Of a stretch of DNA of 30,691 nt, positions 21,142-22,429 are shown one piece after another (position 1 is the stretch's first letter; the number at the start of each line of letters is the position of its first letter). The notes under the pieces were generated by a model. That model did no database searches. It saw nothing but the letters and a program-made list of their open reading frames with translations, and had not been told where the DNA came from. Source of the stretch: a virus; IMG/VR virus record IMGVR_UViG_3300045806_000047, positions 1 through 30,691 of that record; one strand, given 5' to 3'. A program made the position numbers and the translations under genes.

Positions 21142-21228
21142 ACTCACTTTTTCAACTTTCAAAGAGTTTTGTTCAAAAATTCACTTTCAAGTCCACAAAA
21201 TTCACAAAACTTCACCCACTTGGGAAAA

Positions 21229-21286
21229 TGTGGTATCACAATTATCCACGAGTTATCTATATATAACTGATAATTGTGATACCACA
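21229..21286. repeat. Large palindrome in copy A
   Basis: TGTGGTATCACAATTATC (21229-21246) and its exact reverse complement (21269-21286) surround 22 bases that hold a further AGTTAT/ATAACT stem around CTATAT. The total can form a hairpin or cruciform of 24 pairs with a four-base bulge. There is no U-run after it, so it is not a standard terminator. Confidence 0.88.
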
Positions 21287-21356
21287 TATAATTACCCCAT
21301 ATGTTAATGAAAAACACTTTAAAAGTTTTAAACCCTCCTCTCTTTCACTCTGTCTC

Positions 21357-21396
21357 CTCTCTCTCTCTCTCTCTCTCTCTCTCTCTCTCTCTCTCT
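21357..21396. repeat. (CT)20 microsatellite
   Basis: Forty bases of uninterrupted CT repeat, followed by further CCTCTCT blocks to 21415. The matching part of copy B is much shorter and interrupted. The purine strand could form triplex DNA, and the length is likely to vary by slippage. It lies about 80 bases before the YiiX-like gene start. Confidence 0.95.
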
Positions 21397-21444
21397 CCTC
21401 TCTCTCCTCTCTCTCAATGTAAAGACCCTTCTGATTTATAGGCG

Positions 21445-21474
21445 AATAAATATTTCCTTTAACCAGGGAATATT
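21445..21474 (+). promoter_or_regulatory. AATAAATA octamer with overlapping RBS hairpin
   Basis: AATAAATA (21445-21452) lies 30 bases before the ATG at 21475. AATATTTCC (21449-21457), which starts inside the octamer, pairs with GGGAATATT (21466-21474) with one G-T pair, hiding the AGGGAA ribosome site in a read-through mRNA. Confidence 0.42.
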
Positions 21475-21966
21475 ATGAACAGAAGCGACTTTATCAACAA
21501 TGGGGATATTATCAATGTCTTCACTAATTCAAACTCTGGATTGGTGGACAAACTGATTTCAATTTGGGAAGGTGGACATAAACCCTTTCACTCAGGTATT
21601 GGAGTGTATGTAAATGGAAAGTTAAACGTGCTCCAAGCAGACCCAAATCATCAATACCTTGTACCAATCGAGTATTACAACTCTAATAAAATTCACATCA
21701 TTAAAGGAACTAAACCTTTTGATGTTCATAGTGCTATTGAATATACCAAATCGTTTCAATATTCCTATTTAGGAGCAACTGAAGCAGGATTAAGTCAATA
21801 CATAAAAATTCCTACTCTTCAAACACAAGGTAAATATTGTTCACAATTATGTGTTGATTTATGGACACAAAATGGTTATGAATTTAAAAGTGATGTAATT
21901 GACCCTTATTCACTTGAATTAGAATTGAAATGGAACTTTAAGATTATTGAATTACCTCCTTGTTAA
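21475..21966 (+). CDS. YiiX-like permuted papain-fold hydrolase
   Basis: The 163-aa protein fits the YiiX/NlpC-P60-like permuted family. GDIINVFTNSNSGLVDKLIS is at the N-terminus (residues 9-28). Then come FHSGIGVYVNGKLNVLQAD with the catalytic-type His at about residue 39, a beta-strand region, and late YCSQLCVDLW with the presumed catalytic Cys at about 122. Such enzymes cleave amide bonds in peptidoglycan or lipids, or act as acyltransferases. No signal peptide is present. The gene sits alone between two copies of a long repeat, like a mobile cassette or moron. A wall-degrading or host-modifying role is possible. Confidence 0.72.
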   Translation: MNRSDFINNGDIINVFTNSNSGLVDKLISIWEGGHKPFHSGIGVYVNGKLNVLQADPNHQYLVPIEYYNSNKIHIIKGTKPFDVHSAIEYTKSFQYSYLGATEAGLSQYIKIPTLQTQGKYCSQLCVDLWTQNGYEFKSDVIDPYSLELELKWNFKIIELPPC

Positions 21967-22148
21967 TTTTCATCAATCTCTTTCTTTTTAATGTTAAACC
22001 AATCGAGCAATTCTTGTTTAGTTTCATCATGTTCTTTTTGCTCGATTGGGTTTAAACTTTCCTTTGACTGAAGTATCACCATCTTTTGACATTTTGGAAG
22101 TATAAAAGTGTTAAATTCTTCCATCGTTTGCTTGTAATCTATGCTCAT
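21963..22148 (-). CDS. Small helical protein (61 aa) in the repeat-flanked cassette
   Basis: The minus-strand frame from 22148 begins MSIDYKQTMEEFNTFILPKC and is highly charged and helical, ending DWFNIKKKEIDEN. AAAGG lies eight bases before the ATG. It is convergent with the YiiX-like gene, overlapping its end by four bases. With that gene it fills the space between the repeat copies. It could be a partner, such as an inhibitor, but this is speculation. Not recognised. Confidence 0.55.
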   Translation of the reverse strand: MSIDYKQTMEEFNTFILPKCQKMVILQSKESLNPIEQKEHDETKQELLDWFNIKKKEIDEN

Positions 22149-22191
22149 TTTTATGACCTTTTTGTTAGTGTTTAGATGATATTTTTGCCGG

Positions 22192-22429
22192 ACTCACTTT
22201 TTCAACTTTCAAAGAGTTTTGAACAAAATTTCACCTTCAAGTCCACAAAATTCACAAAACTTCACCCATTTGGGAAAATGTGGTATCACAATTATCCATT
22301 AACTGTCTATATATAACTGATAATTGTGATACCACAGATAGGTCTAAAAACACTTTAAAACTCTTAAACTTTCCTCTCTTTCTCTCCTCTCTCTGTCTCA
22401 TTGTAAAGACCCTTCTGATTTATAGGCGA
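22192..22429. repeat. Long direct repeat, copy B
   Basis: Copy B begins ACTCACTTTTTCAACTTTC like copy A and ends TATAGGCGA directly at the stop of the 283-aa gene. It lacks the extra 20-base block and most of the CT tract of copy A. The palindrome arms are unchanged although the bases inside the palindrome differ. Confidence 0.88.
22279..22336. repeat. Large palindrome in copy B
   Basis: The arms (22279-22296 and 22319-22336) are identical to those of copy A and perfectly complementary over 18 bases. The inner 22 bases differ and have lost the AGTTAT arm of the secondary stem. Conservation of the arms but not the centre suggests that the arms are what matters. Confidence 0.88.

Follow-up and report, generated by a model that had tools for sequence, protein, structure and literature searches.

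A duplicated palindrome upstream of a CyRepA1-family replication gene as a candidate phage origin region

Two long direct repeats, each holding a palindrome with the same arms, lie upstream of a replication gene in the 30,691-bp virus record IMGVR_UViG_3300045806_000047, and the locus raises the question of what such a duplicated element is for. We analysed this record over its whole length (here called the window); it has no terminal repeats. We judge, at slightly better than even confidence, that the two repeats represent a duplicated initiator-recognition site in the origin region of phage replication. The 183-aa and 525-aa proteins encoded at positions 27117-29246 of the window are also encoded by a second record of 7730 bp, IMGVR_UViG_3300046638_000010, which runs past the window's end into more structural genes. 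This record is probably the same virus, and the window record is therefore probably incomplete.

Structure of the repeats and their palindromes

The elements of the two copies are as follows.

21142-21445: repeat copy A, 304 bp, made up of a left part rich in TTCAC, the palindrome, an A+T/CT-rich stretch and the 28-bp end shared with copy B
21180-21215: iteron-like cluster of copy A, TTCAC/TCCAC pentamers at 9-12 bp spacing
21228-21287: palindrome A, 19-bp perfect arms, 22-bp spacer, 27% GC
22192-22429: repeat copy B, 238 bp, its end coinciding exactly with the stop codon of a 283-aa gene
22230-22265: iteron-like cluster of copy B, same TTCAC/TCCAC pentamers
22279-22336: palindrome B, 18-bp perfect arms, 22-bp spacer, 23% GC

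The initial annotation, made from the sequence without database searches, described two colinear repeats at an offset of 1050 with shared ends, and the alignment bears this out. Positions 21142-21290 and 22192-22340 match without gaps over 149 nt with 11 mismatches (93%). Beyond indels the copies are still colinear at 21310-21350/22346-22386 (88%) and in a third piece, 21398-21455/22382-22439, inside which lies the identical 28-bp end (21418-21445/22402-22429). The copies differ in length in the CT-rich part, where a long CT dinucleotide run in copy A (21358-21416) is far shorter in copy B; the run could change length by slippage, just upstream of a 163-aa gene. The TTCAC/TCCAC cluster is unchanged between copies although adjacent bases differ. 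We rejected the repeat as coding sequence, since a 14-nt indel and the phases of the mismatches do not fit.

Identical 18-bp arms, each accompanied by its exact reverse complement, had also been reported, and they are present as described, with the arm of copy A extending to 19 bp. The arm TGTGGTATCACAATTATC occurs at exactly four sites in the window, 21229-21246 (+), 21269-21286 (-), 22279-22296 (+) and 22319-22336 (-), with no fifth site even when 3 mismatches are allowed (mean of 0.08 in shuffled sequences). No other palindrome in the window combines arms of at least 15 bp with a spacer below 45 bp; 20 Markov simulations gave none, the longest arm being 14. Each arm is itself symmetric (TGTG-N4-CACA), and the spacers, at 23-27% GC, are poorer in G+C than the window as a whole (~33%). 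DNA folding z-scores of the palindromes range from -6.0 to -9.0, and the hairpins are equally strong on both strands, as expected of a DNA site.

Conserved arms around a diverged centre had been taken as a sign of selection. The arms indeed carry no differences, and given 11 differences in 149 columns the probability of none in 36 arm columns is 0.04; taken by themselves, the two copies thus give a modest, not a strong, indication that the arms are under selection. Neither palindrome qualifies as an intrinsic terminator with a G+C-rich stem and a T run, and no T run follows either arm. An Rfam search of the window returned 0 matches above the gathering score. Searches of viral contigs for the exact arm, the exact 3' end and the gapped palindrome found no matches, nor did blastn of the region against phages and of copy B against plasmids. 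The gapped inner arm, sought in genome contigs, matched a single Prevotella contig, at an unrelated hairpin after a thioredoxin-reductase-like gene, and this match was discarded. A change in GC skew, which the initial annotation had proposed as a check, provided no usable signal: both overall and at fourfold sites, skew is confounded by gene direction and has no clear switch.

The replication protein and the neighbouring genes

Copy A lies ~1 kb and copy B ~2 kb upstream of rep, in the following setting.

16889-20248, (-): rep, 1119-aa CyRepA1-family replication protein
20323-20763, (-): GIY-YIG homing-type endonuclease gene, between rep and copy A
20768-20819, (-): terminator-like hairpin, 14-bp arms then CTTTTT, between the GIY-YIG gene and copy A
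21475-21966, (+): 163-aa ORF between the copies, no family match
21963-22148, (-): 61-aa ORF between the copies, no family match
22430-23281: 283-aa ORF, no match in Pfam, PHROG, NCBIfam or phage records

The family assignment of Rep comes from the NCBIfam model CyRepA1 (NF042913), whose curated cut-off of 200 bits the window Rep barely exceeds (201.9 bits) and the Rep of its closest relative, contig L016, clearly exceeds (283.3). Rep also matches PHROG replication families and 179 plasmid records, and its helicase region distantly matches RepA of VP882, phiHAP-1 and others (about 24% identity). Both profile and fold relate its SF2 helicase core to the origin-binding protein (OBP) of herpesviruses. 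A profile of the window and L016 Reps searched against the PDB found herpes simplex virus (HSV) origin-binding proteins (E 1e-7). With an AlphaFold model of Rep, the best four Foldseek matches were all HSV-1 OBP bound to OriS (9hgj/9hgi, E 4e-15), and the next match stood at 8e-8, over six orders of magnitude weaker; the mean pLDDT of the model is 59, with the helicase region confident and the remainder poor. Pfam Herpes_ori_bp is matched by 23 of the 30 Reps in the family alignment and gave no match to the window Rep itself.

The C-terminal part of Rep has a helix-helix-helix-strand-strand order and could be a winged helix; a fold of this domain predicted from the single sequence was of too poor quality and was set aside. 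At the N terminus, a weak PHROG primase-type match and a DVDND motif lead us to infer a primase domain with putative primase activity.

Between the copies, the 163-aa and 61-aa ORFs run towards each other, as annotated. The label "YiiX-like" given to the former finds no backing: neither ORF matches Pfam, PHROG or NCBIfam, and searches of phage and viral collections found no relatives of the 163-aa protein. Elsewhere in the window, a 518-aa large serine recombinase is encoded at 11063-12619, beyond the endolysin region, which suggests that the phage is temperate, and a protein with a Pfam Antirestrict match (13244-13642; 2.2e-09) is likely a counter-defence gene product.

Paired palindromes at related replication loci

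Searching with Rep identified L016 (30% identity over residues 91-702, E 1e-72). Its rep is preceded, at 0.5-0.7 kb, by two identical 67-bp direct repeats spaced 94 bp start to start (27 bp between them). Each is a palindrome with arms of 15-16 bp and a 36-bp spacer; the arm is likewise restricted to its four sites, and the pair has the same orientation relative to rep as in the window. A contig from a second metagenome, L097, is 99.9% identical to L016/L096 and represents the same virus with the same pair. Rep is the only protein homologous between the window and L096/L097.

The two viruses share a half-site, TGGTRTCWCAA...CAGTTATAT, in agreeing orientation:

21261-21284, (-): half-site of copy A, TGGTATCACAATTATCAGTTATAT in rep orientation, resembling L016 TGGTGTCTCAAGTTTGCAGTTATAT
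22311-22334, (-): half-site of copy B, same as that of copy A

The alignment score of 26 for copy B was reached by 32 of 5000 palindrome-preserving shuffles, and the copy A score by 130. When the comparison is made with entire 2-kb upstream regions from other loci, the next locus reaches 25 against the 26 of copy B. The likeness is therefore not exceptional and weak alone, and we treat it as supportive only; the argument rests on the arrangement and not on the sequence. Conservation of the arms in other phages, which the initial annotation would have looked for, thus extends to one relative and there as similarity; the exact arm occurs nowhere else in the collections searched.

Among 51 related Rep loci with at least 2 kb of upstream sequence, paired directly repeated palindromes upstream of rep were found only in the closest relative. 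The 50 more distant loci, some of them near-identical to one another, had no such pair in the 2-3 kb upstream of rep. Many other Rep loci have perfect palindromes (spacer 0) near rep. Twelve CyRepA1 plasmids had no paired palindromes upstream of rep, and 11 of the 12 had no direct repeats there. The remaining plasmid, pSYN7502.01, has seven direct repeats with core ACACTAGAACCCCACCCCT upstream of its CyRepA1 gene (3452-3908 of L101), which are candidate iterons. The Leptolyngbya phage OR994056.1 encodes a related helicase and has a 174-bp imperfect palindrome in two inverted intergenic copies (768-941 and 11889-12062); we considered these repeats as a counterpart and rejected them, as the arrangement differs.

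Candidate functions and comparison with known systems

Several pieces of evidence make an origin region the most likely reading: (i) In both viruses the element travels with Rep, lies upstream of it in a fixed orientation and is duplicated. (ii) Inverted sites around an A+T-rich spacer are the build of an OBP-type origin. (iii) In pSYSA, a CyRepA1 plasmid of Synechocystis, the replicating fragment consists of the locus just upstream together with the gene (PMC9978351), and the direct repeats of pSYN7502.01 lie in the corresponding place. On this reading, the inverted arms of each palindrome would serve as binding sites for Rep, whose SF2 helicase would melt or extrude the A+T-rich 22-bp spacer; Rep would then prime synthesis at the palindromes, with both repeat copies functional. 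The TTCAC cluster may provide auxiliary sites. The interval between origin and rep seems to have received the 163-aa/61-aa cassette and the GIY-YIG gene at a later stage, by insertion.

Several observations count against an origin: the pair is known from one independent relative, copy B is 2 kb away from rep, the CyRepA1 cut-off is passed narrowly, direct repeats are absent upstream of rep in 11 of the 12 CyRepA1 plasmids, GC skew is uninformative, and promoter-like sequences in the L016 palindromes fit an operator equally well. The initial annotation leaned towards an origin on account of the neighbouring primase-helicase; with a CyRepA1/UL9-like Rep and paired palindromes in the closest relative this is the best-supported reading, short of proof.

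A bolder form of the origin reading, which we hold tentatively, is that the element is the counterpart of OriS in a bacterial virus: a UL9-like Rep would recognise the arms, extrude the hairpin and initiate at two directly repeated origins, and the arms would be the first defined recognition site for CyRepA1. Such a site seems to be missing so far, and the terms inverted repeat, iteron and palindrome are absent from the CyRepA1 literature searched. Many cyanobacterial and phage-like plasmids use CyRepA1-type proteins, and a compact, duplicated candidate site in two distant phages with a UL9-like initiator makes recognition by this family directly testable.

Less probable, though a serious contender, is that the palindromes act as operators of leftward promoters, with copy B serving the 61-aa gene and copy A the GIY-YIG and rep genes, and with Rep or a repressor on the arms. 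Both copies do face leftward towards these genes, and each L016 spacer holds a rep-directed promoter-like match, TTTGCA-17-TATAGT (9/12), in a region with 5 promoter-like sites against 1.7 expected from shuffles. In the window, however, the palindromes contain no promoter match and promoter-like sites in the region are at chance (24 vs 20.3); a terminator-like hairpin on the leftward strand separates copy A from the GIY-YIG and rep genes, and the window and L016 have no repressor in common. Initiator proteins often autoregulate, and the origin and operator readings can be compatible if Rep regulates itself.

We consider it improbable that the palindromes act as RNA, as hairpins in transcripts upstream of rep with a role in rep regulation or in priming replication, in the manner of the pSYSA sRNA pair. 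The hairpins are very stable, and the pSYSA origin is under the control of RNAs upstream of CyRepA1 (PMC9978351), but the 163-aa gene on the opposite strand and the terminator-like hairpin stand between the copies and rep, there is no Rfam match, and the hairpin is equally strong on both strands.

The initial annotation had also offered the boundaries of a mobile cassette and resolution sites, and neither gained positive support. A duplication arising from a two-gene cassette that entered or swaps by recombination between the repeat copies is very unlikely. The repeats enclose exactly one convergent gene pair without a family match, and its 163-aa member is without relatives in the phage and viral collections searched; yet the L016 pair has only 27 bp between its repeats and no cassette, so pairing does not need one, and searches of phages and viral contigs found no empty or alternative allele. 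Least credible of all is a site of telomere resolution (a protelomerase telRL-like site) or of attachment for the 518-aa serine recombinase: Rep relatives VP882 and phiHAP-1 are protelomerase phages and the window encodes a large serine recombinase, but a scan of early-region proteins found no protelomerase, the window palindromes have a spacer that is not itself perfectly palindromic, in contrast to the perfect spacer-0 palindromes near many other Reps, and the recombinase gene is 9 kb distant.

Returning to the origin reading, the RepA replicons of N15, VP882 and phiHAP-1 resemble the window in their distantly related Rep helicase region and differ in having a protelomerase and a telRL palindrome, neither of which was seen in the window. 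In satellite phage P4, ori and crr comprise two long direct repeats that are cis replication elements, and the alpha protein is a primase-helicase that binds the origin. The window resembles P4 in having two long direct repeats and a putative primase-helicase, but alpha falls outside the UL9/SF2 type and the sites of P4 are different. The plasmid pRN1 uses a stem-loop origin with a combined primase-helicase protein, but the helicase is SF3 and the single 100-bp stem-loop lies downstream of the gene (PMC4234260).

The CyRepA1 plasmid origins are alike in Rep family, by the NCBIfam cut-off, and in having a cis region upstream of rep (PMC9978351), and pSYN7502.01 also has repeats there. Unlike them, the window element belongs to a phage, and its copies are about 1 and 2 kb away from rep; pSYSA has been described with sRNAs, and the 12 plasmids are without paired palindromes. 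Compared with HSV OriS, the phage arms have another sequence, are 18 bp long and perfect, and come as two copies in direct repeat; a further arm copy in the place of the third OriS box, which forms a hairpin with box 1, is absent from the window at up to 3 mismatches, and the phage Rep adds an N-terminal primase-like region to the UL9 plan. Nevertheless, OriS has inverted recognition sites flanking an A+T-rich spacer (PMC12543377), the layout of each phage palindrome, and UL9/OBP is an SF2 helicase to which Rep is related by profile and fold. If true, this correspondence would link phage and herpesvirus origin mechanics.
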